Assembly (NCBI GenBank): GCA_029005135.1
Contig: JAQXFO010000010.1
Coordinates: 1-41,670 of the forward strand
Source of the DNA: Lachnospiraceae bacterium
GTDB lineage: Bacteria; Bacillota; Clostridia; Lachnospirales; Lachnospiraceae
Length of the DNA stretch: 41,670 bases
Reading direction: 5' to 3'
Shown: in pieces, positions 22,389-41,395 of the stretch
Layout: each line of letters opens with the position of its first letter
Position numbering within the stretch: position 1 is the stretch's first letter
Position numbers and translations under genes: made by a program
Notes under the pieces: generated by a model
Seen by the model: only the letters and a program-made list of their open reading frames with translations
Database searches by the model: none
What the model was told of the DNA's origin: nothing

Positions 22389-22397
22389 AGGACGCTT

Positions 22398-23295: not shown

Positions 23296-24003
23296 TCAGG
23301 CGTTCACCTGTGCATTAAAGGTATCCACCATGATATCCCAGGCTTTGATCAGATCCGGATCATTGTTAAACAGACCTGAGGAGCCGACGATAAAGGATTC
23401 AATACCGGCATCAGCCAGAATCTTAAAGGTCCTGGCATTGCAGGAGCCATCGATCTCGATAATGTAATGATATTTCTCCGGATTCGACTCTCTCAGAGCT
23501 TTCGCTTCTCTCACCTTGTCGAGAACTTCCGGGATAAACGGCTGACCCGCAAAACCCGGATCCACACTCAGGAATGTGATTTTATCCACCTTATGCAGAT
23601 AGGTCTGAACCATCGACAGAGGTGTTTCCGGATTGATCACGACACCTGTCTTAAAGCCGGCAGCTTTGATCTGATCCATAATGCGGAAGGCTTTCCCATT
23701 AATGACTTCGGCATGCGGGCAGTAATAGCTGATGATGCCTCTGTCGGTCATCGGCTTAACAGCCTTGCTGCAGGCTTCAATGTACTGAGCCGGATCAGTC
23801 ACCATCAGATGGAAATCCATCGGAATATCGCAGGCCGGAGCCATGGCCTTCGCCATATCCGGTGACAGCGTGATATTCGGAACAAAATGACCGTCCATGA
23901 TATCAAAATGATACAGATCGGCTCTCTTGTTCAGAATATCGAGCTGTGCTTTCATATTCAGAAAATCCATGCACATCAGAGACGGGTTAAAAATCGGTTT
24001 CAT
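23296..24003 (-). CDS. alsE: D-allulose-6-phosphate 3-epimerase
   Basis: The 235 residues form a ribulose-phosphate-epimerase-type TIM barrel with features that set AlsE apart from Rpe: NPSLMCMDFL at the N-terminus, FDIMDGHFVPNITLSPDM, VINPETPLSMVQTY, HKVDKITFLSVDPGFAGQPF and EIDGSCNARTF, SSGLFNNDPD. Metal ligands are recognisable as His32, Asp34, His65 and an Asp near 185. AlsE interconverts allulose-6-phosphate and fructose-6-phosphate. It is transcribed alone from the promoter at 24063-24091, and its 3' end faces the cassette terminator. The two RpiB-family genes at the far end of the locus could supply the matching allose-6-phosphate isomerase. Confidence 0.9.
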   Translation of the reverse strand: MKPIFNPSLMCMDFLNMKAQLDILNKRADLYHFDIMDGHFVPNITLSPDMAKAMAPACDIPMDFHLMVTDPAQYIEACSKAVKPMTDRGIISYYCPHAEVINGKAFRIMDQIKAAGFKTGVVINPETPLSMVQTYLHKVDKITFLSVDPGFAGQPFIPEVLDKVREAKALRESNPEKYHYIIEIDGSCNARTFKILADAGIESFIVGSSGLFNNDPDLIKAWDIMVDTFNAQVNA

Positions 24004-24062
24004 CTTTTTTTCTCCTCATTGTTATGCCGGGTTATTTTTGAATAACCTGTAATAAAAAACTG

Positions 24063-24095
24063 TATCTATGATAATATTGAAACAGGTTCAATATT
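24063..24095 (-). promoter_or_regulatory. alsE promoter overlapped by a long palindromic operator
   Basis: On the minus strand TTGAAC (24091-24086), 17 bp, TAGATA (24068-24063). The -35 lies inside a perfect inverted repeat with 9-bp arms: AATATTGAA (24073-24081), 5-bp spacer, TTCAATATT (24087-24095). A repressor here would block alsE. A second inverted repeat GGTTATT/AATAACC lies further down the leader. Confidence 0.6.
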
Positions 24096-24167
24096 GCACA
24101 AAAGAATCCATACGCAGCCGCCAGAGCTGTCAGATTTACCAAAACAATCATTGAGGGGTATGACAAC

Positions 24168-24944
24168 GTGAAGTCAAATTTTCTGAATCGTAAGAATTAT
24201 ATTCTCGAAAAGCTCGAAGCCGAAGGACAAATCGATACCGCTAAGCTTGCCGAGGAGCTAAATGTTACAAAAGAAACTCTCCGAAAAGACCTGACCTCTC
24301 TTGAAGAAAAAAGGCTTCTCATCCGTACTCATGGCGGAGCTTTACGTGCCGACAGCAGTTCTCCGGCCATCGCGCAGACAGCCTACCGCCAGATGCTTCA
24401 CCGCGAAGAAAAGGAAAAGCTGTGCCGTGCCGCCGCCTCCCTGATCAAAGACGGCGATACGATCTATATCGACGGCAGTACAACCTGCTTTTCAATTCTC
24501 AAGTTCATCGATCCTTCCATTCGCATAACCGTTATCACCAATTCGATTCAGCTCATTGTCGAATCCGAAGAATACATAAGCGACAAGATTCTGGTATTCC
24601 TTGTGGGCGGCATCTATGTCAAAGCCTTCCATTCCTGTTTTGGCGATATGGCCATCAAGATGTCTTCATCCTTCCATCCGAACAAGGCCTTCTTTTCGTT
24701 TATGAGTCTTGATGATGAAGGAAACCTGTATGATGCCGATATGTACGGTGTTGATCTGAAAAAGCATTTCACGGCCAATACCGAATCGGTCTATTTTCTC
24801 CTCGATCATTCAAAAATCGGCAAGCGAGGCGGCATCTCCCTGATCGCGGTCGATGCTGCCGATGTCATCATAACTGACGACCGTATTACGGAACAGCAGC
24901 GAATGATTCTTGAATGCTTCAGAAAAAAGCTGCTCATTGTTTGA
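24168..24944 (+). CDS. DeoR-family transcriptional regulator
   Basis: The GTG at 24168 follows GAGGGG. The protein has a DeoR helix-turn-helix (DTAKLAEELNVTKETLRKDL then RTHGGALRAD) and the sugar-phosphate sensor domain (DGDTIYIDGSTTCFSILKF; ITVITNSIQLIV; FLLDHSKIGKRGG). It is a close paralogue of the regulator at 31105-31884, with aligned motifs throughout. It lies between the divergent alsE and the convergent aldolase. The sequence CAAAACAAT just upstream (24140-24148) recurs at 37669-37677, so it may be an operator. Confidence 0.93.
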   Translation: MKSNFLNRKNYILEKLEAEGQIDTAKLAEELNVTKETLRKDLTSLEEKRLLIRTHGGALRADSSSPAIAQTAYRQMLHREEKEKLCRAAASLIKDGDTIYIDGSTTCFSILKFIDPSIRITVITNSIQLIVESEEYISDKILVFLVGGIYVKAFHSCFGDMAIKMSSSFHPNKAFFSFMSLDDEGNLYDADMYGVDLKKHFTANTESVYFLLDHSKIGKRGGISLIAVDAADVIITDDRITEQQRMILECFRKKLLIV

Positions 24945-24982
24945 AAACAGGCTGGCTCTCTGTCATCCCCCGCGATCTGCGT

Positions 24983-25630
24983 TCAGCGCTGACCGTAACT
25001 GTTTTTTACAAAATCCTGCATAAACTGAACTTCTTCATCCGGAATGCCGCAGGGTGTTCCATGGGAGGCCTCCACCATATACAGGATCTGAGCCGTCATT
25101 TCCAGAATCGTCGCCGATGTGAAAGCGCCTTCCATATCACGGCCCACGCAGAGGGCGCCATGGGAATTCAGAAGACAGGCCATCGCTTTTTTACCCAGAG
25201 CTGCTATAGCCGCATCCGACAGGGCATCGCTGCCGGGTATCTCATGTTTCGGGGTACAGCGCACCACATCACAGAGAAGCTGAGCGGCTTCGTCGATAAT
25301 CATCGGGATATCTTCACCTTTAGCGGCAAATACGGTCGAATACAGCGCGTGAGTATGAATAACGGCATTAATATCCTCTCTGGCTCTGAACACTGCCGTA
25401 TGCATCGGTGTTTCAACGGTGGGCTTTCTGTGTCCGTCCACAATATTTCCGAAAAGATCGGTGACAACGATATCCTCTTCACCGATGGTATTGTATGGCA
25501 TACCGCTCGGTGTCAGATAAACCAGCTGTGTTTCAGGATCTCTGACGCTGATATTACCGTAGGTTGATACTGTCAGACCGGATTCAGCCATACGCAGCCC
25601 GCTTTCAACAATTAATTTTTTGTAATTCAT
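24983..25630 (-). CDS. Class II aldolase, L-fuculose/rhamnulose-1-phosphate aldolase type
   Basis: The ATG at 25630 follows AAGGAG. The 215 residues match FucA-like zinc aldolases: GLTVSTYGNISVRDPET, TPSGMPYNTI, ETPMHTAVF with the catalytic Glu, VIHTHALYSTVFA carrying the HxH zinc pair, and LLNSHGALCVG with the third His. Such enzymes split ketose-1-phosphates into dihydroxyacetone phosphate and an aldehyde; some relatives are epimerases or decarboxylases. It is the last gene of the long minus-strand operon, 18 nt after a rhamnulokinase-like gene, which suits a kinase-aldolase pair. Confidence 0.88.
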   Translation of the reverse strand: MNYKKLIVESGLRMAESGLTVSTYGNISVRDPETQLVYLTPSGMPYNTIGEEDIVVTDLFGNIVDGHRKPTVETPMHTAVFRAREDINAVIHTHALYSTVFAAKGEDIPMIIDEAAQLLCDVVRCTPKHEIPGSDALSDAAIAALGKKAMACLLNSHGALCVGRDMEGAFTSATILEMTAQILYMVEASHGTPCGIPDEEVQFMQDFVKNSYGQR

Positions 25631-25648
25631 ACTATCTCCTTTCAATCC

Positions 25649-27115
25649 TTACCGGCAGACAATCTGTCGGTAAGCTTTATTCCACATTTCTCGGTTTGCC
25701 GGGAAATATTGCCTGACTTCAAAGGACCTTCTGATAACATCAGCATAGGAATCGCCATCCGGTAAGACGCCCAGAGCGTCAAACTGCACAAGCGCATTCC
25801 CGGCAGCCGTGGCTTCTGTCGGCCCCGCACAGACGATCTTACCGGTAGCATCCGCAATATAGCGGCAGAAATCACGATCCTGAACAGCTCCGCCCAGAAG
25901 ATACACTTTATCGACGGTTTTACCGGTCAGATCTTCCAGTTCTTCGATATTTTTGCGATAGTGCAGAGCCAGTGATTCCATCACACAGCGGTACAAAAGT
26001 CCCTGATCATGTGTCTCTTCCTGCCCTGTCCGACCAAAATACTCGTTGATGGCCGCTTCCATATCATCCGGAGCCTCGAAAATCGTATCCTCGACATCGA
26101 TATGGCGGGACAACGGCGGTGCCGCTTCGGCTGCGGCAATCAGGTACTCGTAATCGATCGGTTTGCCGGCTGTCTCCCAGCACTTGCGCAGTTCCTGGAT
26201 AAACCACATACCCATGATGGTATTAACCATCTTGACTTTCCCGCCGGCCGCACCTTCATTAGAGTAGTGCGCCAGACGGACACGATCATTGATAACAGGT
26301 TCATCCATCACCATACCGATAATCGACCAGGTACCGGAGTTGATAAAGATATAGAACTCCTCTTCTGCCGGCACCGCGGCCGCGGCAGAGGCCGAATCAT
26401 GCTGTGCTGCCGATATCACCTGCAGGCTTTTCGCCGTATCAAGCCTGATCTTGCGGCAGACTCTGTCAGACAAGCGCCCGCGAACCGATCCGGTCGGCAT
26501 AACAGGAGGAAACGCCGTTTCCGTAAGCCCTGCCGCCTCCAGAATCGACGGACAAAACGTTTTATCCGCCAGGCTGTATAGCTGTGTTGTCGACGCAGCA
26601 GTATATTCCAGCCCCCGGTTCCCGGTCAGGAAATAGATCAGGGCGTCAGACAGCATAAGAAAGGTATCGGTATTCTTCAGGATATCCGGATTTCTCTCTT
26701 TCAGCCCCAGAAGCTGGAAGACCGTATTGTACCACATATCCTGAACGCCGGTCATGCCAAAGAGTCCGCCTTCTCCAAACAGCGTTTCTGCCTTTGTGAT
26801 CATATTCTCACTCTGACGATCACGATAATGGTACGGATTTGTCAGCAGTTCTCCCTGTTTATCAAGAAGAACAAAATCAACCCCCCAGCAATCAATGGCC
26901 ATCGAAGCCAGATCGTCATATCGACGGCAGGCTTTTTTTAATCCGGTCAGAATCTCATGATACAGATACAGGATATCGGTATATAACCGCTGCCCCACCG
27001 CTATCCCTTCATTCGAAAAGCGATGGATCTCCTCCATGGTCATCATGCCGTCTTCCAGGTTCACCGCCATGACACGTCCGCTTGACGCACCAAGGTCAAC
27101 AGCAAGAACTCTCAT
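25649..27115 (-). CDS. Rhamnulokinase-like FGGY sugar kinase (copy 1)
   Basis: The 488 residues are an FGGY kinase of the RhaB branch: VLAVDLGASSGRVMAVNL (phosphate-binding DxGASSGR), MAIDCWGVDFVLLD, NPYHYRDRQSENM, SAAQHDSASAA, FINSGTWSIIG and YLLGGAVQDRDFCRYIAD. It should phosphorylate a ketose, probably at O-1, ahead of aldol cleavage. It sits between the aroE-like gene and the aldolase. A second member of the same subfamily lies in the same operon. The true substrate may not be rhamnulose because no rhamnose isomerase is seen. Confidence 0.9.
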   Translation of the reverse strand: MRVLAVDLGASSGRVMAVNLEDGMMTMEEIHRFSNEGIAVGQRLYTDILYLYHEILTGLKKACRRYDDLASMAIDCWGVDFVLLDKQGELLTNPYHYRDRQSENMITKAETLFGEGGLFGMTGVQDMWYNTVFQLLGLKERNPDILKNTDTFLMLSDALIYFLTGNRGLEYTAASTTQLYSLADKTFCPSILEAAGLTETAFPPVMPTGSVRGRLSDRVCRKIRLDTAKSLQVISAAQHDSASAAAAVPAEEEFYIFINSGTWSIIGMVMDEPVINDRVRLAHYSNEGAAGGKVKMVNTIMGMWFIQELRKCWETAGKPIDYEYLIAAAEAAPPLSRHIDVEDTIFEAPDDMEAAINEYFGRTGQEETHDQGLLYRCVMESLALHYRKNIEELEDLTGKTVDKVYLLGGAVQDRDFCRYIADATGKIVCAGPTEATAAGNALVQFDALGVLPDGDSYADVIRRSFEVRQYFPANREMWNKAYRQIVCR

Positions 27116-27145
27116 ATGACTCTCCTGCGATGATAATGACGGTTT

Positions 27146-28015
27146 TCAGTAATGTACGGAAATGCCGTACTCTTCGGCCAGTGCTTCTTTCATGACTTCA
27201 GCATCAGCGGTTTCGCCGGTCCAGTAGCGAATGCTTTCCACGCACTGATTGATCAGCATGCCCAGACCGTCAATGGTTTTTGCCTGACGCTTTTCCGCCT
27301 CCTTAAGAAGCTGCGTATGCGGATGATTAGGAATCACGTCGCAGACGATCATCCGGTCATGAATACTGTCAAAAACAATATCCGGACGGGCATCCACATT
27401 CGGATACAGGCCGATATCGGTCGTATTGACCAGAATAGCCGTATCCTCATCAATCGTCATGGTATGATCCCAACAGCGATAAACGACTTTCAGATCAGAA
27501 AAATGGCTTTCCAGTGTCTCCACCAGGCCTTTGCCGCGCGCCTCGGAACGGTTGATAATGACCAGCTCACCGATGCCGGCCCTGGCCAGTTCAACCGCAA
27601 TAGCTCTGGCCGCTCCGCCCGCACCCAGCATGGTGACTTTCTTTCCTGTCACATCAATGCCGGCATTGACAACGGAAGCCATAAAGCCCTTGCCGTCTGT
27701 GTTTTCTCCTCGGAGCTTGCCGTTTTGATTAACGATCGTATTCACGGCGCCCATAATAGCCGCTTCTTCCGAAATACTGTCCAGATAAGGGATCGCAGCC
27801 ACCTTATGAGGTATAGTCAAATGCATACCCTTGAAATTCATGGCCTTGAGGCCTTCAAGAGCCGCCGGTAAGGCTTCCGGATGAACATTGATCGTCAGAT
27901 AGCGATATGGGATACCCAGTGTTTCAAAGGCTTTCTGAGCCACGACCACCGTCGGATTCTCATCCACCGGATCTCCAAAGACACCTACCAGTTCTTCTCG
28001 ATAAGATTTTCCCAT
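27146..28015 (-). CDS. Shikimate dehydrogenase-like oxidoreductase without the canonical shikimate-binding serines
   Basis: The 289 residues match the AroE/YdiB fold: KGMHLTIPHKVAAI with the catalytic Lys71, GENTDGKGFM with Asp107, and the NAD(P) loop MLGAGGAARAIAVELARAG with NRSEARG. In the N-terminal substrate site, the usual GDPVxHSxSPxxHN reads GDPVDENPTVVVAQ. Thus the two serines become Asn20 and Thr22, and the His-Asn pair becomes Ala-Gln. Its neighbours are sugar kinases and a UPF0303 gene, not aromatic-pathway genes. I infer a dehydrogenase for another polyhydroxylated substrate, perhaps a sugar acid or cyclitol. Confidence 0.88.
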   Translation of the reverse strand: MGKSYREELVGVFGDPVDENPTVVVAQKAFETLGIPYRYLTINVHPEALPAALEGLKAMNFKGMHLTIPHKVAAIPYLDSISEEAAIMGAVNTIVNQNGKLRGENTDGKGFMASVVNAGIDVTGKKVTMLGAGGAARAIAVELARAGIGELVIINRSEARGKGLVETLESHFSDLKVVYRCWDHTMTIDEDTAILVNTTDIGLYPNVDARPDIVFDSIHDRMIVCDVIPNHPHTQLLKEAEKRQAKTIDGLGMLINQCVESIRYWTGETADAEVMKEALAEEYGISVHY

Positions 28016-28017
28016 TG

Positions 28018-28515
28018 TTATAACTCCATTACCTTTTCGATGTCATCGATTCCCAGATACCTGGCGGCACCGTCCACAGCAGTCTGATGATCCATCGTAT
28101 GTGTCAGTCCCGACACCGCCAAAACACCGATGCAGCCGACGCCTTTCACAACGATCGGAAAACCGCCTCCCATATCAGCATAATCCTGCGGATCAAGATG
28201 AGCATCGCGGTAGATATCATCTTCGCCGGCAAAGGGCATATAATGAATCCGCAGCGTACTCCTGTGAAACATGTTAACCGTATTGATCTTACGTCTCAGC
28301 CACCAATCATTATAACCATTTGTTCCGTTAAAGCCATAACGGAACACCTGATAACCGTTAATATGGATCTCAACAGCAATAGCCTTACCGGCTTTCCTGG
28401 CCTCCTCAACGATCAGGGATCCCAGGTTCCAGGCGTCATCATTATCAAAGTGCTCGAATAGGATTCTCTCCTCCTGTATTTTGACGATCTCGAGATTTTT
28501 TTCTTCGTTTGTCAT
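28018..28515 (-). CDS. UPF0303/HbpS-like (heme-degrading-domain family) protein
   Basis: The 165 residues fit the UPF0303/YBR137W family: FDNDDAWNLGSLIVEEARK, IAVEIHINGYQVFRYGFNG, WLRRKINTVNMFHRST and FPIVVKGVGCIGVLAVSGL, then DHQTAVDGAARYLG. Family members are small cytosolic proteins with a PAS-like or profilin-like fold, some named for heme binding, with no settled function. It sits 2 nt from the aroE-like gene and 1 nt after the M24-like gene, so it is a tight part of the sugar operon. UPF0303 genes in sugar operons hint at a metabolic role. Confidence 0.88.
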   Translation of the reverse strand: MTNEEKNLEIVKIQEERILFEHFDNDDAWNLGSLIVEEARKAGKAIAVEIHINGYQVFRYGFNGTNGYNDWWLRRKINTVNMFHRSTLRIHYMPFAGEDDIYRDAHLDPQDYADMGGGFPIVVKGVGCIGVLAVSGLTHTMDHQTAVDGAARYLGIDDIEKVMEL

Positions 28516-28516
28516 A

Positions 28517-29614
28517 TTACAGCTCCTTAACCAGAATATCCGGGCGCTTTATCGTTATGCCATCAATATCAACATCGCGATAGACCCATTTACCGGTATA
28601 GGATACAATATCCTGTGTATCACCCTTGATAACATAGGTATCTTCAAGCTTGACACCGGCGATGGTGGGATTCCAGGAATACCCCTGATGATCCAGCACC
28701 ACGGCCTCTGTTCTTTCATTCGTGCAGTAATCTCTTGTCAGATAGCCAAGGGCGCCGCCCTGATGATGCAGATGGAAATCAGCTTCAAAACCGGTCTCTT
28801 TATAAACCTCATACGCTTTCGCCAGAACATCGCGCGACATAACACCGGCTTTGGTATTCAGAATATACGTGGCATCGATCTTCAGAAGTGCCTCATACTT
28901 TGTCCTGATTTCTTCTGACAGCGGTTCAAAGCTGACAATACGGCTGATAGATATGGTCAGGCCGTATTTCTGAGCACAGATCGCGATCATGGCGTACTTT
29001 TCAATCTTCTTTGTTGTCGGCAGCGGATGGCGGTATTTGAAAAGACGTTCATCCGACGCCACCAGCATGACCGGTACCGCAAATCCGGCGGCAATCAGTC
29101 TGCCGGCACAGCGTCCGGCTGCTTCCATTTCCGTTTCTCCCGGTTGGATATCTCTCACAGAATCTTCCAGAATACCGGCGGCTAACGGGCCGATCTCCTG
29201 CATTCTGGCTTCTTCTTCCGGAGTCAGAACATAGCGCAGCGGATTGATGAGACCGGCAATTTGGCGTGTACCGTAAACGCCGGTATCACTGCCGGTTTTT
29301 GACAGATCGACGTAACGGGATACCACGGCGGTTTCATCCTCATGCCAGCGGAAACCGATCAGTTCAAAAGTCCCATCTGTCAGTTCTTCATCAAAAACAC
29401 GATACATTTCACTGGAGTTGCAGATAGCGTAGGCTTTATCTTTGGTAATCAGGATCTTGGCCGCCGCTTCGCCGCAGCTTCTGTCGACCATATCACCTTT
29501 ACCGCCTGTGATCCAGTAAAAATTGTGAATGGAATTCAAAATGACAGCATCAAGCGATTCTTTCGCCATCAGTTCTCTGACACGTGACAGTTTGATCTTC
29601 AATTCATCACTCAT
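28517..29614 (-). CDS. M24 (aminopeptidase P/creatinase) fold protein lacking metal ligands
   Basis: The 365 residues have an N-terminal creatinase-type domain (1 to about 130) and a pita-bread M24 domain. The five metal ligands of M24 peptidases are mostly absent. The first Asp position reads Cys213 (AICAQ), the second Ser222 (ISISR), and the first late Glu reads Asn315 (SWNPT). Only His284 (HHQGGALGY) and Glu324 (VKLEDT) are kept. Creatinase, a metal-free hydrolase on this fold, is the nearest precedent. A peptidase role is therefore unlikely. The start overlaps the upstream kinase gene by 8 bp. Confidence 0.87.
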   Translation of the reverse strand: MSDELKIKLSRVRELMAKESLDAVILNSIHNFYWITGGKGDMVDRSCGEAAAKILITKDKAYAICNSSEMYRVFDEELTDGTFELIGFRWHEDETAVVSRYVDLSKTGSDTGVYGTRQIAGLINPLRYVLTPEEEARMQEIGPLAAGILEDSVRDIQPGETEMEAAGRCAGRLIAAGFAVPVMLVASDERLFKYRHPLPTTKKIEKYAMIAICAQKYGLTISISRIVSFEPLSEEIRTKYEALLKIDATYILNTKAGVMSRDVLAKAYEVYKETGFEADFHLHHQGGALGYLTRDYCTNERTEAVVLDHQGYSWNPTIAGVKLEDTYVIKGDTQDIVSYTGKWVYRDVDIDGITIKRPDILVKEL

Positions 29615-31097
29615 GTTTCGCTTCCTCCACTATTCTGACGAATCTGCTGTACATCTCCGTCCATTTTTCCCGTTCTTCCGGTTGGAATTCTTTGATTTCA
29701 AAGGAATCACGGATAATCTGCCTGCCTTCCTTCAGGTCTCTGACCTCGCCGTAAGTCCGCATCTGAACGATCAGATTGCCGATCAGACCGGCTTCATAGG
29801 GCCCTGCATACACGGTTTTCTGGCAGGCATCCGCGGTCCACTGATTGAGAAGGTCATTGTGAGCACCGCCGCCCACAATATGAATCTGTTCCAGTTCATA
29901 GCCGTCCACGGCTTCGATCTGGTCATAAACCATCCGGTATTTCAATGACAGGCTTTCAAGAACACAGCGCACCACATGGCCGAAATCCTCCGGCACCGGC
30001 TGCCCGCTTTGACGGCAGAAATCCTGAACTTTGGCAATCATATTGCCGGGCATATAGAACAGTCGGTTGTCGGGATCAATAAGACATTGTCCGGACGGCG
30101 CTGCCATAGCCATGGCGTTGATTTCATCATACCCCGGCTTCTGTCCTGTCTTCTTCTGATAATCAAACAGGCATTCCTGGAATATCCAGAGACCCATGAC
30201 ATTCTTGATCTGACGATAGCGATGATCAATGCCGCCCTCATAGGCAATGTTGCAGGCAAACGTGTCATCGCTGATAATCGGTTCCGGTACTTCTGTGCCG
30301 ACGATAGACCAGGTGCCGCTGCTGATAAATCCGACGTGATCCTTTGACGTCGGCAGGGCCACCACCGCTGCCGCCGAATCATGTTCCGTGACGGCCACCA
30401 CACTGACAGGCGGATCGGCTTCCGTCAGTCCGATCAGGTCCGGCTTGATCGTACCGGTAATATAACCGGTCTCCACCACATCCGCAAAGATATTTTCGGG
30501 AATACCCAGACGCCGCATCATGTCCGCCGCCCAGGTTTGGCGACGCCAGTCAAAAAGCTGTGAAACAGAAGCCATCGTGTATTCCGTCACCATATTTCCG
30601 GTAAGGAAATAGGCCAGAGTATCCGGCAGCATCATAGCCTTATGCGTATGATCAAGAAGGAATTTCTCGCCTTCATAAACCATAGCGGCCATTTCCATAG
30701 AGGTATTGAACAAGGCCGTCTGTGCGCCCGTTGTCCGATACATCTCTTCTGCCGACACCTTACCGTAGATCTTGGCGGCATGCCTTTCCGTTCTTTCATC
30801 ACGGTAGCATCTGACCTGATTCAGGAGACGGCCGTCCGGCCCGATCAGACCAAAATCATTGCAGTAGGAATCCAGTCCTACACTGACCAGTCTGTCACGA
30901 CGGTCTGCCAGTGAAGCCTGGATACCGGTCAGAAGATTACGATAAATATTGATGATATCCCAGTAGAGTCCGCCGCAGATCTCTGTCTGACGATTCTCAA
31001 AGCGGTGAACGACTCTGGTTGTCAGCTTTCCATTCTCCAGAAAGCCTTCCATCATCTTACCGCTGCTGGCTCCGAGATCAAACCCAAGATATTTCAT
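29607..31097 (-). CDS. Rhamnulokinase-like FGGY sugar kinase (copy 2)
   Basis: From the ATG at 31097 (GAGAG upstream) the 496-residue protein has MKYLGFDLGASSGKMMEGF, SVGLDSYCNDFGLIG, AVTEHDSAAAVVALP, GFISSGTWSIVGTEVPEP and IHIVGGGAHNDLLNQWTADA, with YAGPYEAGLIGN. These are RhaB-type FGGY kinase motifs. It differs clearly from copy 1: the metal/substrate segment reads LDSYCNDFGL where copy 1 reads IDCWGVDFVL. The two kinases likely have different substrates or act at different steps. It follows the DeoR gene by 7 nt and overlaps the M24-like gene. Confidence 0.9.
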   Translation of the reverse strand: MKYLGFDLGASSGKMMEGFLENGKLTTRVVHRFENRQTEICGGLYWDIINIYRNLLTGIQASLADRRDRLVSVGLDSYCNDFGLIGPDGRLLNQVRCYRDERTERHAAKIYGKVSAEEMYRTTGAQTALFNTSMEMAAMVYEGEKFLLDHTHKAMMLPDTLAYFLTGNMVTEYTMASVSQLFDWRRQTWAADMMRRLGIPENIFADVVETGYITGTIKPDLIGLTEADPPVSVVAVTEHDSAAAVVALPTSKDHVGFISSGTWSIVGTEVPEPIISDDTFACNIAYEGGIDHRYRQIKNVMGLWIFQECLFDYQKKTGQKPGYDEINAMAMAAPSGQCLIDPDNRLFYMPGNMIAKVQDFCRQSGQPVPEDFGHVVRCVLESLSLKYRMVYDQIEAVDGYELEQIHIVGGGAHNDLLNQWTADACQKTVYAGPYEAGLIGNLIVQMRTYGEVRDLKEGRQIIRDSFEIKEFQPEEREKWTEMYSRFVRIVEEAKHE

Positions 31098-31104
31098 AAT
31101 TCTC

Positions 31105-34463: not shown

Positions 34464-35426
34464 TTACTTGCTATCCCGTTTCTGGATTCTGATCAGGTCG
34501 ATACTGGCCGCCACAAGGATGATCAGGCCCTTAATCAGAGTGATGTAATAATAGGGAACACCTAAGATGTTCAGCGAATTGTCGATCATCGAAATCAACA
34601 GAGCACCAAGAACCGTATTACGGATCTTACCGCTGCCGCCGGCCGGGCTCGTGCCGCCGACGATAATACTGGCCATGATATCATTGAACATCGTGGAGCC
34701 GTAGTTGACGGAGCCGCTCTGCATATAGGCCAGTTCGACGATGCCGGCAATACCGGCGCAGATACCGCTGATAACATAGGCTTTGAAGATCGTCTTTCTG
34801 GGTGAAATACCGGATGTCAGAGCTGTTTTATGATTCGTACCGACAGCATACAGCTGGCGGCCGAAGATTGTTTTCGTTGTTATAATGTGAAGAACGATTG
34901 CCACGCCCAGGGCAATAAAAAGAATAAACGGGAAAATGCCGATGCCGCCTTTAAACTTGCCGAAGGCTGCCGGCAGACCGGATACGGATGCGCCGCCTGT
35001 AAAAACAACCGCAATACCGTTCACGATCATCTGAGTTGCCATCGTAACAATGAACGAAGGCATTTTAAATGTTGTGATGGATAAACCGTTGATAATACCA
35101 AGAAGCAGGCCAAGGCCGACCATGGCCAGAAGTGCCAGCACAATCGAGAATCCGCTGCCGCCCAGAGGTCCGGCTGTTCTCATAATTGAAGCACCAACGA
35201 CAGTTGTCAAGGCCAGAAGTGCAGTACTGGTAAAGTCTACACCGCCATTAAGAACGACCATATGGACGCCGCAAGCCATGATAATCAGCACGCTGCTCTG
35301 ACTCATAAAGCGTGATAATGTGTTCAGATTAGCAAAACCGGGGACAACCACCAGCGAAAAAATAAAGAATGCAATTACGAACCAGATAATGGCATCTATA
35401 GATTTAAATTTTTTTAATGTACTCAC
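34464..35426 (-). CDS. Ribose-type sugar ABC transporter permease (first permease)
   Basis: I place the start at the GTG at 35426 (MSTLKKFKS) because AAGGTGG lies 8 nt upstream; the longer frame from 35438 begins inside that ribosome binding site. The protein has RbsC features: IMACGVHMVVLNGGVDFTST, GIINGLSITTFKMPSFIVTM and FGRQLYAVGTNHKTALTSGI, with about nine hydrophobic helices. It follows a terminator-like hairpin after the binding-protein gene. Confidence 0.92.
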   Translation of the reverse strand: MSTLKKFKSIDAIIWFVIAFFIFSLVVVPGFANLNTLSRFMSQSSVLIIMACGVHMVVLNGGVDFTSTALLALTTVVGASIMRTAGPLGGSGFSIVLALLAMVGLGLLLGIINGLSITTFKMPSFIVTMATQMIVNGIAVVFTGGASVSGLPAAFGKFKGGIGIFPFILFIALGVAIVLHIITTKTIFGRQLYAVGTNHKTALTSGISPRKTIFKAYVISGICAGIAGIVELAYMQSGSVNYGSTMFNDIMASIIVGGTSPAGGSGKIRNTVLGALLISMIDNSLNILGVPYYYITLIKGLIILVAASIDLIRIQKRDSK

Positions 35427-35446
35427 ATTCAAACCCACCTTGCTTA

Positions 35447-35524: not shown

Positions 35525-36577
35525 TTAATAACCTGTGAAGTCAGCATAATCGGTATCGACGTTTTCGGAGCTAACTGTGAAGCCCGGATCGATGTAGTCT
35601 TTGGACGGTTTGCCGGAGGCAGCGTCAACAGCAGCATCGACACAGAGTGTAGCCTGAACGGTAGCATCCTGAACAGTAACGCAGTCGACATAGCCATCGC
35701 GGATAGCGGTAACGGCATCGGCAGCACCGTCGAATGTCACCAGAGTGACGTGACCATCTTCACCAACCTTGTTGTACTTGCCAAGCTGCTGCAGACCGGA
35801 AACGATAGACGGCAGAAGGGCATCAGACGGGCTGAAGATGAAGTTAACGGTATCATCGGAAGAGAATGTGTTCTGGACACCGGCCAGAGCCTTGTCACCG
35901 GACCATTCTGTCGGAACAGTGGCAACCAGTTCGAAGATATCCGGATACTTGGCGATGGATTCTTCGAAGCCTTCCTGACGGGCAATAGCATTGACGTCAG
36001 TCAGAGAGCCAACCAGTTCAAGGCAGCGATACTTTGTGCCTTCCGGAGTGATGGAAACGATGTATTCGATTTCATCAGCAACCATGGCCTTGTTATCGGA
36101 AGAAATGGTGGCATAAACTTCGCAGCCTTCACCGGCAGCTCTGTTAGCCATGACAACCGGGATACCGGCGTTGTTGCATTCGACGATAGCGGAAACAACA
36201 GCCTGGCCGTCGGCCGGAGCAATGATGATAGCATCAACGCCCTGGGCGATGAAGTTTTCGATCTGTTCATTCTGCTTCTGAACATCATTTTCAGCAACAG
36301 ATTCGATCAGAGTGATGCCTCTGGCTTCGCATTCGGCCTGGATTGTTCTCTGGTACTCAGCCCACATCTGGGACTCGATAGCGCACCATGAAACACCAAC
36401 TGTGACAGCGTCGGATTCCTCTTCTGCCGGAGCAGCTTCAGAAGATTCTTCAGCCTTGGATTCCTCAGCAGTGCTCGCCGGAGCAGCTGTTGATTCGGAT
36501 GCAGCGCTTCCGCAGCCGGCCAGCATGCTGATAGCCATAGCAGAAACAAGCATCAGGGATAAAACCTTTTTCTTCAT
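35525..36577 (-). CDS. Ribose-type sugar ABC transporter substrate-binding lipoprotein
   Basis: The 350-residue protein has a lipoprotein signal ending SMLAGC (Cys22), a Ser/Glu/Ala-rich linker to about residue 58, and a Peripla_BP_4 domain: GVSWCAIESQMWAEYQRTIQ, NDVQKQNEQIENFIAQGVDA then IIIAPADGQAV, and GIPVVMANRAAGEG. This class binds ribose, galactose, allose, rhamnose and similar sugars; the ligand is not determined by sequence. The ATG follows AAGGAG. It is the second gene of the long minus operon, after the PfkB kinase. Confidence 0.93.
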   Translation of the reverse strand: MKKKVLSLMLVSAMAISMLAGCGSAASESTAAPASTAEESKAEESSEAAPAEEESDAVTVGVSWCAIESQMWAEYQRTIQAECEARGITLIESVAENDVQKQNEQIENFIAQGVDAIIIAPADGQAVVSAIVECNNAGIPVVMANRAAGEGCEVYATISSDNKAMVADEIEYIVSITPEGTKYRCLELVGSLTDVNAIARQEGFEESIAKYPDIFELVATVPTEWSGDKALAGVQNTFSSDDTVNFIFSPSDALLPSIVSGLQQLGKYNKVGEDGHVTLVTFDGAADAVTAIRDGYVDCVTVQDATVQATLCVDAAVDAASGKPSKDYIDPGFTVSSENVDTDYADFTGY

Positions 36578-36601
36578 TTTCGTTTCTCCTTTTTTCTTAT
36601 T

Positions 36602-36628
36602 ACATTAACGGCCCTCTGCCGATAATGT
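36602..36628 (-). other. Hairpin in the kinase/binding-protein intergenic region
   Basis: ACATTAACGGC (36602-36612) and GCCGATAATGT (36618-36628) form an 11-bp stem with one mismatch and a 5-nt loop. No T run follows, so it is more likely an mRNA-processing or stabilising hairpin than a terminator. Confidence 0.5.
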
Positions 36629-36643
36629 TCTGTCATTGACTGA

Positions 36644-37576
36644 TTACCGGATGGTCTCAATTCTGACCTGTCCCATCAGTTCTTTTGCCCGCTTCGGATC
36701 AAACCCGACAGTATCATGAGATTCTGCCGTTGCCGAGGAGACTGCCGACGCGATTCTGAGTGTCTCTTCAAAGGGAAGCTCCTGATCCAGGCCATATGCC
36801 ATCCCGCTCAGGAAAGCGTCTCCGCAGCCGATCGTGTTGATAACATCGACTTTAAGCGGATGGACGCGATAAATAGCATCTTGATAGGAAACAAAAGAAC
36901 CGCGGCCTCCGCAGGTAACAGCGATGCAGGCAATACCTTCACCGGCCAGTTCGCGGATTCCTGCCACAACGTCATCATCGTTTTCTATCTTCCGGTGCAG
37001 GATCTGTCCCAGTTCATCCTCGTTGGGTTTAATGAGGAAGGGTTTCAGTTTTAAGCCTTCCTTCAGATTCTCAGAGCTTGAATCCAAAAGAAATCTGACA
37101 TTTTTTCCGGCCAGGCGCTTCATAGCCTCAACATAGAAAAGAGGGATCTCGGTATTGGAAGCATCACCTGACAGAACCAGAATGTCGCCGCTGCCAATCT
37201 CTTCTTCCATCTTTTTAAGAAGCAGTTCACCTTCTTCTGCGGTGATCATACGGCCTTTTTCGCTCATCAGAGTGCAGCAGCCGTTTTCTTCGACAATGGC
37301 ATAGTTGGTTCTTGACTGACCGTATTCGTAATGATCAAAACGCATATCGATGTAACCGTCGTTCATACGTTCTTCGATCTGCAGGCCGACCGAACCGAAA
37401 TCAATACCGTAGGCTTTATTGCGGCATTGCAGGATTCCCAGATTAACCGACACATGTGTGCCTTTTCCGCCAAGGACATCCTTCTGTCCCGTAATACGGT
37501 TGGTATTTCCCAGTGAAAGGCCTTTCAGATAGACGATACGATCCATCGCCGGATTAATTGTCAAAGTACATATCAT
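36644..37576 (-). CDS. PfkB-family sugar (phosphate) kinase, 1-phosphofructokinase/tagatose-6-P kinase type
   Basis: The 310 residues start MICTLTINPAMDRIVYL, typical of the FruK/LacC branch, with GGKGTHVSVNLGIL in the substrate site and the ATP/catalytic motif DVINTIGCGDAFLSGMAYGL (catalytic Asp in GCGD). The usual GGKGxNVA reads GGKGTHVS, so specificity may be altered. FruK/LacC enzymes phosphorylate fructose-1-phosphate or tagatose-6-phosphate. It is the first gene of the long minus operon, behind the promoter at 37700-37728. Confidence 0.9.
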   Translation of the reverse strand: MICTLTINPAMDRIVYLKGLSLGNTNRITGQKDVLGGKGTHVSVNLGILQCRNKAYGIDFGSVGLQIEERMNDGYIDMRFDHYEYGQSRTNYAIVEENGCCTLMSEKGRMITAEEGELLLKKMEEEIGSGDILVLSGDASNTEIPLFYVEAMKRLAGKNVRFLLDSSSENLKEGLKLKPFLIKPNEDELGQILHRKIENDDDVVAGIRELAGEGIACIAVTCGGRGSFVSYQDAIYRVHPLKVDVINTIGCGDAFLSGMAYGLDQELPFEETLRIASAVSSATAESHDTVGFDPKRAKELMGQVRIETIR

Positions 37577-37615
37577 AATTCTTTTCTCTTGTGTTTTCTT
37601 TGTTTTCTTTTGTTG

Positions 37616-37677
37616 ATTGTTTTGTTATGTTTTGTTTTTGCGTTTTGTTTTGTTTTTATTGGAGAGCGCAAAACAAT
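37616..37677. promoter_or_regulatory. Putative operator cluster in the divergent sugar promoter region
   Basis: ATTGTTTTG (37616-37624) and its exact complement CAAAACAAT (37669-37677) form a wide inverted repeat. Between and across them GTTTTGTT occurs four times (from 37619, 37629, 37642 and 37647). The same CAAAACAAT occurs upstream of the DeoR gene at 24168. The cluster lies just downstream of the minus-strand promoter, where a repressor would block transcription. Assignment to DeoR is inference. Confidence 0.5.
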
Positions 37678-37699
37678 TCTGTTGATTTTGTTTAATGCA

Positions 37700-37728
37700 A
37701 TTTTAACCGTCTATCCCTTGCATTTCAA
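37700..37728 (-). promoter_or_regulatory. Promoter of the long minus-strand sugar operon
   Basis: On the minus strand TTGAAA (37728-37723), 17 bp, TAAAAT (37705-37700). The leader to the PfkB start is about 115 nt and contains the operator cluster. Confidence 0.6.
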
Positions 37729-37827
37729 GTGTGCTTTGGCTATTTAGTACTATTTCGTGAATCTCTAACAGATATTTTCATGTATTTTTTGTCTTTTTGC
37801 TGTTTTTTATTTAACTTGCTTATATTT

Positions 37828-37857
37828 TTGTTTATTTCTCCTTTTCGGTGTTATAAT
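37828..37857 (+). promoter_or_regulatory. Promoter of the plus-strand sugar operon
   Basis: A perfect TATAAT (37852-37857) with TG one base upstream (extended -10) and TTGTTT (37828-37833) at 18 bp. It is 46 nt before the TTG start at 37903. Confidence 0.65.
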
Positions 37858-37902
37858 CTTTGAAACAAAACTTTTCTTTTCTTTCTTTAGGAGGATAAAA
37901 CA

Positions 37903-38718
37903 TTGAAAGATTTAAGCAAATATTTCGGCATGCCCATCATGCTCGACGAAGAGACCGGCAAACTGGTTTCCAGCGATCCGGATGTTTCCTGGGAAGCCTC
38001 TTCACGTAAGTTCTCCGATAAAATGATCGGCCTGATCGCCGATCCTTCTTATGATAAGAAGGATGAGATGTACTACGACTTCTATAAAGCCATCGTCAGA
38101 AACAGCGACAAAGAAGTCTTCACATCCCGCGAACTTCGTTATGATTCCACGGTTATCTTCGCCGGCACGGCCAATGGCGAATTCAAAAAGACTGCCGGTC
38201 ATTTCCATATGCCGATCCCCGGTAAAACCTGCAGCTATCCCGAACTTTACAGTGTTATTAACGGTACCGCTGTTTTCGTCATGCAGAAGGTCGATAATTA
38301 CGAAACAACCGACACGATGACCGTCGAGGATCTTGTTCTGGCTGTTGTCCATCCGGGTGAAACCATTGTTATCCCGCCGAATTACGGTCACTGCACCGTC
38401 AATATTTCCGATGAGACCCTTGTCTTCATCAACCTGGTTGCCGAAGACAGCCACAACTACTATGACGGCGTCAAAGCCAGTGTCGGCATGTCCGCCTACG
38501 TCTTTAAAGATGGCGACAGCTTTACCGTTAGGAAGAATCCGAACTACAAATTCAACTGCGAGCCGAGAATCACGGCACCGACAGACTGCCCCGAACTTGG
38601 CATCGTGGCCGGCAAGACAGCTTACGACGCCTATCTTGAAAACCCGGATCTCTTCCTGTATCTGAAAGATCCCGAAGAAAAAGCGCCCTACTGCCTGTCC
38701 ATGCTGAAGGATATCTGA
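37903..38718 (+). CDS. Cupin-type glucose-6-phosphate isomerase
   Basis: The start is TTG at 37903, 7 nt after a strong AGGAGG. The cupin core has KTAGHFHMPIPGKTCSYPEL and PPNYGHCTVN, giving the metal ligands His100, His102, Glu114 and His163 of archaeal-type phosphoglucose isomerases. At 271 residues it is longer than the roughly 190-residue archaeal enzymes, with extra sequence at both ends. The family interconverts glucose-6-phosphate and fructose-6-phosphate, and some members may act on other sugar phosphates. It leads the plus-strand operon. Confidence 0.92.
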   Translation: MKDLSKYFGMPIMLDEETGKLVSSDPDVSWEASSRKFSDKMIGLIADPSYDKKDEMYYDFYKAIVRNSDKEVFTSRELRYDSTVIFAGTANGEFKKTAGHFHMPIPGKTCSYPELYSVINGTAVFVMQKVDNYETTDTMTVEDLVLAVVHPGETIVIPPNYGHCTVNISDETLVFINLVAEDSHNYYDGVKASVGMSAYVFKDGDSFTVRKNPNYKFNCEPRITAPTDCPELGIVAGKTAYDAYLENPDLFLYLKDPEEKAPYCLSMLKDI

Positions 38719-38723
38719 GCATC

Positions 38724-39557
38724 ATGCTGGCTGACCTGCATTGTCACAGCACCTGGTCTGACGGCTCCTGCACACCGGAAATGCTTGTCAGGCTGGCTCT
38801 GAGAAAAAAGCTCAGCTATCTGGCCCTGACCGATCATGACACTATGCAGGGTGTCATTCCCTGCCGGAAAGCCGCCGAGGGCACGGCCCTGACGGTCATC
38901 CCCGGTGTCGAATGCACCACGAAAGATGCTGAAACCGGACGTTCCGTTCACGTCCTCTGCTATGCACCAAAGAAACCGGACGTTCTGGACGACCTTATGA
39001 GAACCACCTCCGAGCGGCGGCGCGCCGCCAAAATCGGCATGATGGAGAAGCTCGAGAAGCTCTATCCCGATGTTCGTGTTGAAGACGCCGAAGCACTGTC
39101 CGAAAACAGTGCTTCGATGTTTGAGAGCCATGTCATGACAGCTCTGGCTAATGCCGGTGTCACCAATCAACCCTTCGGCCCTCTGCTGAAATCACTGATC
39201 GGAAAACACGGCAGCTGCTATGTGCCGATTCAGTACCCGGACACATTGGAAACCATCGCCCTGATGCACAGGGCCGGCGGCTTTGTTGTCATCGCCCACC
39301 CCGGGCAATTTGATTCCATGGCCTTGACCCGGCGGCTGGCAAGGGAAAAGATGATCGACGGTATTGAATGCCGCCATTATCGCAACGATGAGAATGTCAC
39401 AAAAGAATGCCTCGCGTTGTGTGCCCGTTATGACCTGGCCGTTACAGGCGGCTCCGATTTTCACGGAGCCAACTCTGTTTCCCCGCACTCTCTGGCCTGC
39501 TGTCACATCAGCGGCAAAGAAGTGGATGTTTTTTTGAGAAGACTTGATAATTTTTAG
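38724..39557 (+). CDS. PHP-domain phosphoesterase
   Basis: The 277-residue PHP protein has the metal-binding motifs in order: LADLHCHSTWSDGS, ALTDHDTMQGV, IPGVECTT, VHVLCY, VVIAHPGQFD and VTGGSDFHGANS. Relatives are phosphatases such as the nucleoside bisphosphate phosphatase/RNase AM group. In a sugar operon it may dephosphorylate a sugar phosphate or remove a toxic by-product. The ATG is 5 nt after the isomerase stop, so translation is probably coupled. Confidence 0.92.
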   Translation: MLADLHCHSTWSDGSCTPEMLVRLALRKKLSYLALTDHDTMQGVIPCRKAAEGTALTVIPGVECTTKDAETGRSVHVLCYAPKKPDVLDDLMRTTSERRRAAKIGMMEKLEKLYPDVRVEDAEALSENSASMFESHVMTALANAGVTNQPFGPLLKSLIGKHGSCYVPIQYPDTLETIALMHRAGGFVVIAHPGQFDSMALTRRLAREKMIDGIECRHYRNDENVTKECLALCARYDLAVTGGSDFHGANSVSPHSLACCHISGKEVDVFLRRLDNF

Positions 39558-39569
39558 AAAGGTTAACAC

Positions 39570-40172
39570 ATGTCACTGAGTTATTTAAAAGAGCGCGAAG
39601 AAATGAGCAAAGTCGCCCATTATATGTGGGATCGCCGTCTGACAAATGCTGCCGGCGGCAACTTTGCTCTCAAGGTTGACGAAGACAGAATCCTGATATC
39701 CCCGTCACTTATGTCGGAACGTCATTTCTGTGAGATGGCCCCGGAAGACTTCCTGCTCATCAACGCCAACATGGATGTTCTGGAAGGTGAAGGCAAGCTG
39801 TCCAGGGAAGGCTATATGCACGTCCTTATTCTGACCCGCTTCAAGAACATCACCGCTACCATTCACGCACATCCGCAGTACTGCATGGTCTATGTGGCTC
39901 AGAACAAGCCGATTCCGAACATCACGGAAGCCACCTGGAAGCGCGGCCCGGTCGAAGCCATCCCGCCGACAAAGGCTTATACACGTGAACTGCATGAAGC
40001 GGTCTACGAGTACTGGGAAGAACGGCGCGAACTCGCCGAAACCTATCCCATCGGCTGCATTATGCCTTATCACGGTGTCGTCGTCTCCGGCAAGGATCTC
40101 TATCTGGCCTACAGCCAGTTGGAGCGTATCGAACAGGATGCCATGTGCGGCATTTTCAAAAACTTCATATGA
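39570..40172 (+). CDS. Class II aldolase/adducin-family protein (second copy)
   Basis: The 200 residues have the class II aldolase pattern: LTNAAGGNFALKVDEDRILI, SREGYMHVLIL with the catalytic Glu and His, ATIHAHPQYCMVY with the HxH zinc pair, and MPYHGVVVSGKDLYLA with the last His. It is only distantly related to the aldolase at 24983. It may split a ketose phosphate or act as an epimerase or decarboxylase. AAAGG precedes the ATG. Confidence 0.9.
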   Translation: MSLSYLKEREEMSKVAHYMWDRRLTNAAGGNFALKVDEDRILISPSLMSERHFCEMAPEDFLLINANMDVLEGEGKLSREGYMHVLILTRFKNITATIHAHPQYCMVYVAQNKPIPNITEATWKRGPVEAIPPTKAYTRELHEAVYEYWEERRELAETYPIGCIMPYHGVVVSGKDLYLAYSQLERIEQDAMCGIFKNFI

Positions 40173-40233
40173 TCCAATCCACGTGATGAAAAAGTTGACA
40201 CAGTCATTAAGTATGACTTACAGGAGGTAAAGT

Positions 40234-40830
40234 ATGAAAACCGTGAAAGACAAACAGGTTCTGGTAGCCGCCGACTTCGCCGGTGTCCCGCTGAAAGATG
40301 CTGTCGTCGAACATCTGCAGCAGAAAGGCTGGACAGTCACCGATATCGGTGTCAAGTCCCTGGACGATCCGCATCCCGAAATGTTCCATCGCATCGGCCT
40401 GCGTGTTGGTGCCAAGATCACAGAAGGCGAATTTGAACGTGCCCTGATCTTCTGCGGTACCGGCATGGGAATTCACCTGGCTGCCGCCAGATGCCCGGGC
40501 GCCATGGTGGCTGTCGCTGAAACCATCCCGGCTGCGCTGCGTGCCATTACCGGCAACAACTGCAACATTCTGGCCATGGGCGGACACTACATCGCACCGC
40601 ACACAGGCATCCAGATGGCCGACGCTTTCCTGGAACATAATCTGGGCGATGGTCACGAAGAATGGGAAGGCTTCTACGAATTCCATAAGCTGGCCTATGA
40701 CGAGTTGATGGCTTTCGATTATGAAAAATTCAAAGCCGATGGCTTCGAATTCATCGATCCGGTTGATCCGTATCTGGCTCCGGAACCGCTTGAAGAAAGC
40801 TGGGATCTGAAATATCACTGCGAAAAATGA
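40234..40830 (+). CDS. RpiB/LacA/LacB-family protein, divergent copy
   Basis: The 198-residue protein has the RpiB fold: VAADFAGVPLKDAVVEHL and RALIFCGTGMGIHLAAARCP with Cys74. Two conserved histidines of RpiB are changed: the DHAG motif reads DFAG (Phe15) and the HNxAN loop reads GNNCN (Gly107). It also has about 45 extra C-terminal residues. The next gene is a more canonical RpiB 19 nt away. Tandem unequal pairs are known as LacA/LacB of galactose-6-phosphate isomerase, so a heteromeric isomerase is likely. The ribosome binding site AGGAGG is strong. Confidence 0.9.
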   Translation: MKTVKDKQVLVAADFAGVPLKDAVVEHLQQKGWTVTDIGVKSLDDPHPEMFHRIGLRVGAKITEGEFERALIFCGTGMGIHLAAARCPGAMVAVAETIPAALRAITGNNCNILAMGGHYIAPHTGIQMADAFLEHNLGDGHEEWEGFYEFHKLAYDELMAFDYEKFKADGFEFIDPVDPYLAPEPLEESWDLKYHCEK

Positions 40831-40849
40831 TCTGACACGAGGTGATCCT

Positions 40850-41395
40850 ATGGAAAAACCGGTTTATCTCGGCAATGACACAGCCGGCTGTTATCTGAAA
40901 AACAAATGCATCGAATACCTGGAAGGAAAAGGTATTCCCTATGTCGATTGCGGTTCCGAAGAAGATCCGGATATTGAAAAAACCCGTTATCCCTTCTTTG
41001 CGGCCAAAGTCGCCAAAGCTGTCGCCACCGGCGAAGCCCGGTGCGGTGTCCTTATCTGCGGCACCGGTATCGGAATCAGTATGGTTGCCAACAAATTCAA
41101 AGGCATCCGCGCCGGTCTCTGCAGCAGCACCTACGATGCCGTTATGACACGCCGCCATAACAACGCAAATATTCTCTGCATGGGCGGAAAAACCACCGGT
41201 GAGTGGATCGCCATCGAAATGCTTGACGCATTTCTTAACACCGGCTACGATGCCGGCTTCCACGAAGGTTCTCTCAACCTGATCACAGAGATGGAAAACC
41301 TGATGATGAATGACCAGATCTGGTGTGAAGAACCGCGCAAGATTTCTACCGGGCCCCTGGCAGATGCCGAACTGTTTGACAGGAGCAAAGGTTGA
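40850..41395 (+). CDS. rpiB: RpiB-family sugar-phosphate isomerase
   Basis: The 181 residues include VYLGNDTAGCYLKNKCIEYL, GVLICGTGIGISMVANKFKG with catalytic Cys70, then IRAGLCSSTYDAVMTRRHNN and ANILCMGG with His103. The family isomerises ribose-5-phosphate/ribulose-5-phosphate, allose-6-phosphate/allulose-6-phosphate (AlsI), or tetrose phosphates. With AlsE in the locus, an allose-6-phosphate isomerase role is attractive. The position of His in DHAG is Thr11 here, so even this copy is not standard. It ends the plus-strand operon. Confidence 0.92.
   Translation: MEKPVYLGNDTAGCYLKNKCIEYLEGKGIPYVDCGSEEDPDIEKTRYPFFAAKVAKAVATGEARCGVLICGTGIGISMVANKFKGIRAGLCSSTYDAVMTRRHNNANILCMGGKTTGEWIAIEMLDAFLNTGYDAGFHEGSLNLITEMENLMMNDQIWCEEPRKISTGPLADAELFDRSKG

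Follow-up and report, generated by a model that had tools for sequence, protein, structure and literature searches.

Several described systems resemble the locus studied here, a putative sugar catabolic gene cluster at positions 23296 to 41395 of a Lachnospiraceae contig (JAQXFO010000010.1, assembly GCA_029005135.1), whose full 41670 bases are called the window below. The D-allose operon of Escherichia coli (alsBACEK/rpiB) likewise has a ribose-type ATP-binding cassette (ABC) importer, the epimerase AlsE and an RpiB-type isomerase. Allose kinase adjoins our gene block in four of the six loci where the block is found, whereas the window locus is without it, and compared with this operon the locus adds FGGY kinases, a PfkB kinase, class II aldolases, a cupin-type phosphoglucose isomerase (PGI), a PHP-family protein, and AroE-like, M24-like and UPF0303 proteins. 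The L-rhamnose and L-fucose pathways (RhaBAD, FucIKA) share with it a RhaB/FucK-type kinase and a FucA-like class II aldolase; unlike these pathways, the window's genome has no RhaA and the locus has a predicted extra 6-phosphate branch. The tagatose-6-phosphate pathway (LacABCD) also has a PfkB kinase and an aldolase together with two members of the RpiB/LacAB family, but the aldolases here are class II and FucA-like, no phosphotransferase system is seen in the block, and the canonical pathway was rejected as the LacA, LacB and LacC models all score below cut-off. Finally, the AroE-like protein shares a clade, an NPT motif and a conserved Lys/Asp with the 5-ketofructose reductases (KFR) of Gluconobacter (PDB 7cok) and Tatumella (TM-KFR). 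In contrast to these, it is encoded in an importer/kinase/aldolase operon of a family of anaerobes, falls in a separate subclade, and is a putative reductase. We found no paper on this gene set in the literature searched, with subscription literature mostly outside reach. A rare-hexose locus of the allose type is of a kind already known; the unusual extra enzymes are what differs.

Conservation of the block and its link to allose

We tentatively read the locus as a catabolic system with several entry routes, its substrate being a rare hexose of the D-allose/D-allulose type or the 5-keto form of such a sugar, and give this reading somewhat less than an even chance. To trace the block, GTDB contigs were scanned with an alignment of M24-like proteins in a pattern-based scan. 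This yielded five further loci, all five in Lachnospiraceae (L043 to L047), and no block copy outside that family. L043 comes from the genus of the window (genome G264), L045 from genome G225, and L046 (G015) and L047 from two Diplocloster species; the cultured D. agilis and D. modestus carry the block. L044 and L045 keep the order PfkB, binding protein, permease, ATPase, permease, DeoR, FGGY_B, M24, UPF0303, AroE. The left end of the block in L043 is not intact. In the two Diplocloster loci UPF0303 is missing, and FGGY_B and M24 are separated by a gene for a xylose-isomerase-like TIM barrel. The block is not confined to close relatives of the window, as it is present in Diplocloster at protein identities from 37% (DeoR) to 77% (ALD_B, one of the aldolases). 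It is rare in the family, with an M24 match above 50% identity in 3 of 250 Lachnospiraceae genomes.

Each of the six loci has an allose-pathway gene: allulose-6-phosphate epimerase in two and allose kinase in four. In the window and L043, AlsE stands at the far end of the block instead of an allose kinase. The alsE-like gene of the window (23296–24003, minus strand) encodes a predicted D-allulose-6-phosphate 3-epimerase (NF007266, 308.4 bits; cut-off 271), to which the copy ending the L043 block is 83% identical. In L044 and L045, as well as in both Diplocloster loci, the gene divergent to PfkB encodes a ROK kinase. The two tested, from G225 and Diplocloster agilis, exceed the cut-off of the allose kinase model (298.2 and 292.4 bits; cut-off 253). 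Homologues occupy this position in L044, at 84% identity, and in L047, where a fragment cut by the locus end has 91% identity over 114 amino acids. The window's genome has its allose kinase elsewhere (C59:23034-23939), adjoining transporter genes and an AlsE that is 80% identical to the one in the window. Fifteen of the 299 family genomes, this one included, have an allose kinase above cut-off, and Als-like operons were seen in G722, G164, G138, G117 and G059. At another locus (L016), the epimerase that adjoins an allose kinase scores about equally with the Rpe and AlsE models (230.7 and 229.0 bits).

The rare-sugar, allose/allulose-like function proposed in a first-pass annotation of this DNA is supported by AlsE or allose kinase in the six loci and by the block in other genera; the tetrose or sugar-acid substrates that it also offered find little support. 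Its statement that there is no rhamnose isomerase extends to the whole assembly, where PF06134 gave 0 matches, but does not apply to the Diplocloster version of the locus, which has a true RhaA. Enzymes of the RhaA class also isomerise D-allose to D-allulose.

The AroE-like protein and the 5-ketofructose reductase clade

The closest solved structure to the AroE-like protein (27146–28015, minus strand), a candidate NADP(H) oxidoreductase, is the Gluconobacter enzyme 7cok (5.9e-63), which comes before every shikimate dehydrogenase. Where shikimate dehydrogenases have HSxSP, the window protein (DENPT) and 7cok have NPT, and both share the conserved Lys/Asp. The SxS motif of shikimate dehydrogenases, whose serine pair binds the carboxylate, is not present. 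In an alignment of 49 rows, 26 are of the NPx type and 23 of the S/T-x-S/A type; the rows were picked by their Lys and NTD motifs, so that conservation at these places is by construction. A tree of 56 rows puts 31, including the window and 7cok, on one side with 100% support in the Shimodaira–Hasegawa-like approximate likelihood ratio test (SH-aLRT), and the other 25 are of the shikimate dehydrogenase type. All 31 rows on the KFR side have the NPx motif, L080 and L127 (both NPT) among them. The tree omits the genome's own AroE (L135) as well as L033-L038, L060, L065 and L069, owing to a filter on open reading frames (ORFs), and two pairs of rows in this tree or in the M24 alignment are the same organisms under two handles. 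Motif and tree place the AroE-like protein with the 5-ketofructose reductase clade and not with the shikimate dehydrogenases.

For the Tatumella enzyme TM-KFR, 5-ketofructose is reported as the sole substrate reduced, NADPH as the sole cofactor and D-fructose as the product (PMC7954740). As the AroE-like protein falls in this clade, it more probably reduces a 5-keto sugar than carries out the oxidation step proposed in the first-pass annotation; the reaction is reversible in principle. Neighbourhoods on alphaproteobacterial plasmids also tie the clade to sugar oxidation products. The AroE-like protein matches four plasmid records at 42.7–44.9% identity, and in all four the relative directly follows a GMC oxidoreductase gene. 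The three annotated records have an AraC gene upstream of the pair. In the fourth, from Rhizobium gallicum, the preceding gene is GMC by Pfam, and a GMC subunit, cytochrome c and an FAD-SLDH (sorbitol dehydrogenase) subunit lie beyond. These GMC/FAD-SLDH neighbourhoods suggest that the clade is connected with oxidation products of sorbitol, fructose or sorbose. The Rhizobium gallicum set (L129, 7425–13689), from the GMC and KFR-clade genes to the GMC, cytochrome c and FAD-SLDH genes, is without annotation in the PLSDB gene table.

A few of the 21 Lachnospiraceae and Bacillota KFR-clade loci viewed do have sugar genes nearby. A Lachnospiraceae member of the clade adjoins a GH32 gene (L116), and another clade member was seen in a locus with an FGGY kinase, RbsD, MFS and LacI genes (L041). 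In L111 and L114, the operon around the KFR-clade gene encodes a ribose-type importer, a glycyl radical enzyme together with its activase, and a lactonase-like protein. This is a second, different sugar locus that uses the clade.

The AroE-like protein of the window would be misnamed by automatic annotation, as would the M24-like protein described below. The locus provides context for two enzyme families: 'shikimate dehydrogenases' of this type are probably sugar reductases, and 'M24 peptidases' in sugar loci are probably not peptidases. None of 15 common gut species is reported to use 5-ketofructose, which has been proposed as a sweetener (PMC7954740). A locus from a gut family with a KFR-clade enzyme in a sugar operon makes an exception to this testable.

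Kinases, aldolases and isomerases

Two FGGY kinases are encoded in the block. The closest PDB structure to FGGY_A (25649–27115, minus strand) is FucK 4c23 (9.9e-84), and to FGGY_B (29607–31133, minus strand; likely start at an ATG near 31097) it is E. coli RhaB (1.3e-80). Both are putative ketose kinases of the RhaB/FucK group, FGGY_B being rhamnulokinase-like. RhaB prefers (3R)-ketoses such as D-allulose. Rhamnulokinase and fuculokinase functions share signatures, and the E. coli rhamnulokinase is promiscuous, according to PMC3245297; PMC8467252 describes phosphorylation of ketoses by rhamnulose kinase and a raised allulose yield on coupling with allulose epimerase. The third kinase, PfkB (36644–37576, minus strand), falls over the cut-off of the 1-phosphofructokinase/hexose-kinase subfamily (TIGR03168, 239.9 bits; cut-off 216.4) and below that of TIGR03828 (227.5 bits; cut-off 292), and is not LacC.

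For the class II aldolase ALD_A (24983–25645, minus strand; PF00596), the best NCBIfam matches, to models for L-ribulose-5-phosphate 4-epimerase and L-fuculose-phosphate aldolase, do not reach cut-off. ALD_B (39570–40172, plus strand; PF00596) has fuculose phosphate aldolase 6btd as its closest PDB structure (1e-14); one Glu and three His are kept in the alignment, which we take to be the catalytic and zinc residues. The isomerase candidates are cPGI (37903–38718, plus strand), which belongs to the cupin-type PGI family by PF06560 and has no NCBIfam match; RpiB1 (40234–40830, plus strand; PF02502), a divergent RpiB/LacAB-family protein below cut-off with both PRK05571 (92 bits) and the DerI model; and RpiB2 (40850–41395, plus strand), an RpiB-family sugar-phosphate isomerase by PF02502 and TIGR01120 (146.8 bits; cut-off 138.65). 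A PHP-family phosphoesterase (38724–39557, plus strand; PF02811) has NCBIfam matches that are all below cut-off.

ALD_B is found in 8 of the 299 family genomes. At all five ALD_B loci outside the block carriers, in five other genera, PfkB, DeoR and FGGY_B lie alongside, with PHP in three of them. The accessory genes at these loci differ, and comprise alcohol dehydrogenase, SDR, transketolase and RhaD-like aldolase genes, or GFO/IDH, TIM-barrel and OYE-type ones. This indicates that the PfkB/ALD_B/DeoR/FGGY_B core is a ketose module used repeatedly, with entry enzymes that differ from locus to locus.

The M24-like and UPF0303 proteins

The M24-like protein (28517–29614, minus strand; PF00557, PF01321) belongs to the 'pita-bread' family, whose peptidases bind metal through the ligands D, D, H, E and E. 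When ligand columns were compared with Pyrococcus furiosus prolidase, the first four positions of the window protein were a gap or Cys, Ser, Gly and Gln, and only the last Glu was kept. The 18 non-reference rows represent 17 distinct genes; every one of these shares the loss, and three lack the last Glu as well. As four of the five prolidase ligands are missing, the M24-like protein is probably not a peptidase. The homologues share other fixed positions, such as a W at the 'WNPT' place and a G at the metal His. Every one of the eleven more distant homologues has one or more genes for a carbohydrate transporter, kinase, aldolase or glycosidase in its locus. Together, the ligand loss in all homologues and their sugar-gene neighbours indicate a non-metallo M24 subfamily that belongs to sugar loci, and we regard the window protein as a metal-free sugar enzyme, not as a peptidase. 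M24-like genes with 30–35% identity to that of the window were also seen in a recurring locus (L018-L023) that encodes a ribose-type importer and a protein roughly 1,100 amino acids long. In L022, the latter consists of DUF5107 and TPR, and ROK and zinc alcohol dehydrogenase genes are present.

The neighbouring UPF0303/HbpS-like protein (28018–28515, minus strand) was assigned by PF03928 and NF002696 (150.2 bits; cut-off 146).

Proposed route and alternatives

Gene families, clade and neighbourhoods are read from the DNA, and from these we infer every reaction in this organism, the redox direction and the sugar. The sugar would be imported and, where it carries a 5-keto group, reduced with NADPH by the AroE-like enzyme to a ketohexose. 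Aldose and ketose would be interconverted by isomerases, cPGI or an RpiB protein here and RhaA in Diplocloster. In a 6-phosphate branch, RpiB2 may convert the aldose-6-phosphate to allulose-6-phosphate and AlsE the latter to fructose-6-phosphate; the allose kinase for this branch would come from another contig of this genome, or in the relatives from a gene adjoining the locus. In a 1-phosphate branch, a (3R)-ketohexose would be phosphorylated on C1 by a RhaB-like kinase, and perhaps on C6 by PfkB, before a FucA-like aldolase cleaves it to dihydroxyacetone phosphate (DHAP) and glyceraldehyde(-3-phosphate). Both branches would drain into glycolysis.

Several observations weigh against this allose-type reading. 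Neither Pfam nor blastx of the window found a ROK or allose kinase among its genes. The Diplocloster RhaA and a RhaD-like gene in L133 also fit L-rhamnose-type sugars. Both FGGY kinases score below the rhamnulokinase cut-off (TIGR02627, 374.6 bits for FGGY_A and 416 bits for FGGY_B; cut-off 528) and are equally near FucK and RhaB. The transporter and binding protein give no clear specificity, as allose, galactose and ribose models all score below cut-off. The AroE-like protein scores above the cut-off of TIGR00507, a general model for shikimate dehydrogenases (223.9 bits; cut-off 200.2). In the tree, the Lachnospiraceae KFR-clade proteins form a subclade apart from that of the characterised enzymes, so the substrate may differ, and most of the 21 Lachnospiraceae and Bacillota KFR-clade loci viewed show no sugar operon. 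A Clostridium pasteurianum relative of TM-KFR is reported to be inactive on 5-ketofructose (PMC7954740). Lastly, the AAACAAAA sites described below are not enriched in the Diplocloster loci, where 304 and 748 of 2000 shuffles had counts as high.

A more specific proposal is a dedicated pathway for 2,5-diketohexoses or 5-keto hexoses in host-associated anaerobes, with import, reduction or epimerisation at C5 by the AroE-like enzyme, phosphorylation at C1 and C6, and cleavage. The metal-free M24-family protein would then represent a novel type of sugar enzyme, such as an isomerase, a lyase or a hydrolase of sugar adducts. We regard this as rather unlikely.

It is unlikely that the locus serves a 6-deoxyhexose of the rhamnose or fucose type, with kinases that would give rhamnulose- or fuculose-1-phosphate, class II aldolases that would release DHAP and lactaldehyde, and allose genes as mere neighbours. 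Both FGGY kinases do match best with rhamnulokinase models and RhaB/FucK structures, ALD_A and ALD_B are both FucA-like, and the Diplocloster locus has its true RhaA. However, the window's genome is without RhaA, the kinases stay below the curated cut-off and allose kinase or AlsE is found at all six loci. Moreover, neither phosphorylation at C6 by PfkB nor the 6-phosphate steps of RpiB and AlsE are open to a 6-deoxy sugar.

A pathway for pentoses, tetroses or polyols, in which ketopentoses or tetruloses derived from polyols are phosphorylated and the products pass to the pentose phosphate pathway, has a small probability in our view. RpiB1 resembles the D-erythrulose-4-phosphate isomerase model to some extent (86.8 bits; cut-off 240), L044 continues with Rpe, transaldolase, a split transketolase and RpiB, and the ALD_B module occurs elsewhere with alcohol dehydrogenase, SDR and transketolase genes. 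The block in the window and Diplocloster has no such polyol dehydrogenase and transketolase genes, however, and AlsE and AlsK indicate hexoses.

That the AroE-like protein is a shikimate or quinate dehydrogenase and the locus degrades a cyclitol acid is highly improbable and was rejected on motif and tree: despite its TIGR00507 match, NPT replaces the SxS pair, the protein lies outside the shikimate dehydrogenase side of the tree, and another gene of the AroE type (33% identity) is found in the genome, at C85.

Locus layout, importer and regulation

The window is a complete contig (C10) of a 2.15 Mb assembly in 88 contigs and has a G+C content of 53%. Pfam and NCBIfam searches of its proteins recovered every gene family listed in the first-pass annotation at the positions given there. 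From 37576 down to 24983, the minus strand encodes PfkB, the binding protein, permease, ATPase, permease, DeoR_A, FGGY_B, and the M24-like, UPF0303/HbpS-like and AroE-like proteins, followed by FGGY_A and ALD_A. From 37903 to 41395, the plus strand encodes cPGI, PHP, ALD_B, RpiB1 and RpiB2. Gaps between genes are -8 to +86 bp from ALD_A to PfkB, given the FGGY_B start at the internal ATG (~31097), and 5 to 61 bp from cPGI to RpiB2. This spacing is operon-like. The genes alsE and DeoR_B (24168–24944, plus strand; PF00455, PF08220) form a divergent pair of their own across a 164-bp gap, with DeoR_B convergent with ALD_A; the locus is therefore not simply two operons. The two DeoR regulators noted are both present, DeoR_A (31105–31884, minus strand; PF00455, PF08220) in all six loci, and a third DeoR gene lies just beyond the locus (22398–23219). 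As the contig, and with it the window, ends 275 bp past RpiB2, the plus-strand operon could continue.

The importer is a ribose-type (CUT2-like) ABC transporter with two permeases, A (31932–32915) and B (34464–35438; both PF02653), an ATPase with two ABC domains (32915–34426; two PF00005 stretches) and a sugar-binding lipoprotein (35525–36577; PF13407), all on the minus strand. The best NCBIfam match is D-allose permease for permease B (164.9 bits; cut-off 396) and RbsB for the binding protein (84 bits; cut-off 337).

Of the eight AAACAAAA/TTTTGTTT sites in the window, six fall within the 326-bp divergent promoter region between PfkB and cPGI (37577–37902); shuffled sequences had 1.10 on average, and 1 of 2000 reached this number. 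L044 and L045 each have five such sites upstream of PfkB, again with 1 of 2000 shuffles as high in each. The AAACAAAA motif was picked by inspection of the window, which leaves L044 and L045, a related pair, as its only test. The AAACAAAA array possibly represents DeoR operators, and a DeoR repressor bound there would switch both main operons.

Other observations

A glp-like operon (FAD oxidoreductases and DUF1667) with a DeoR gene occurs twice in the genome, at 19238–23219 in the window and at C19:64203-69253 (L039). The two copies have 91% DNA identity over 2486 bp, and an AroE-like and ALD_A pair adjoins both, with 88% and 82% protein identity between the pairs. The glp-like genes of the window (19238–22388) were left out of the proposed system. 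Contamination was considered for C19; the only HPr kinase of the assembly adjoins its glp-like copy, which speaks for a genuine contig. The contig end (41616–41670) matches two short stretches of C19 at 96% and 92% (L039, 13846–14035), and is probably a repeat at which the assembly stopped. At 4228–5373, a single reading frame adjoining the one for TsaD encodes both a TsaD-like (TsaB-type) and a GNAT acetyltransferase domain.

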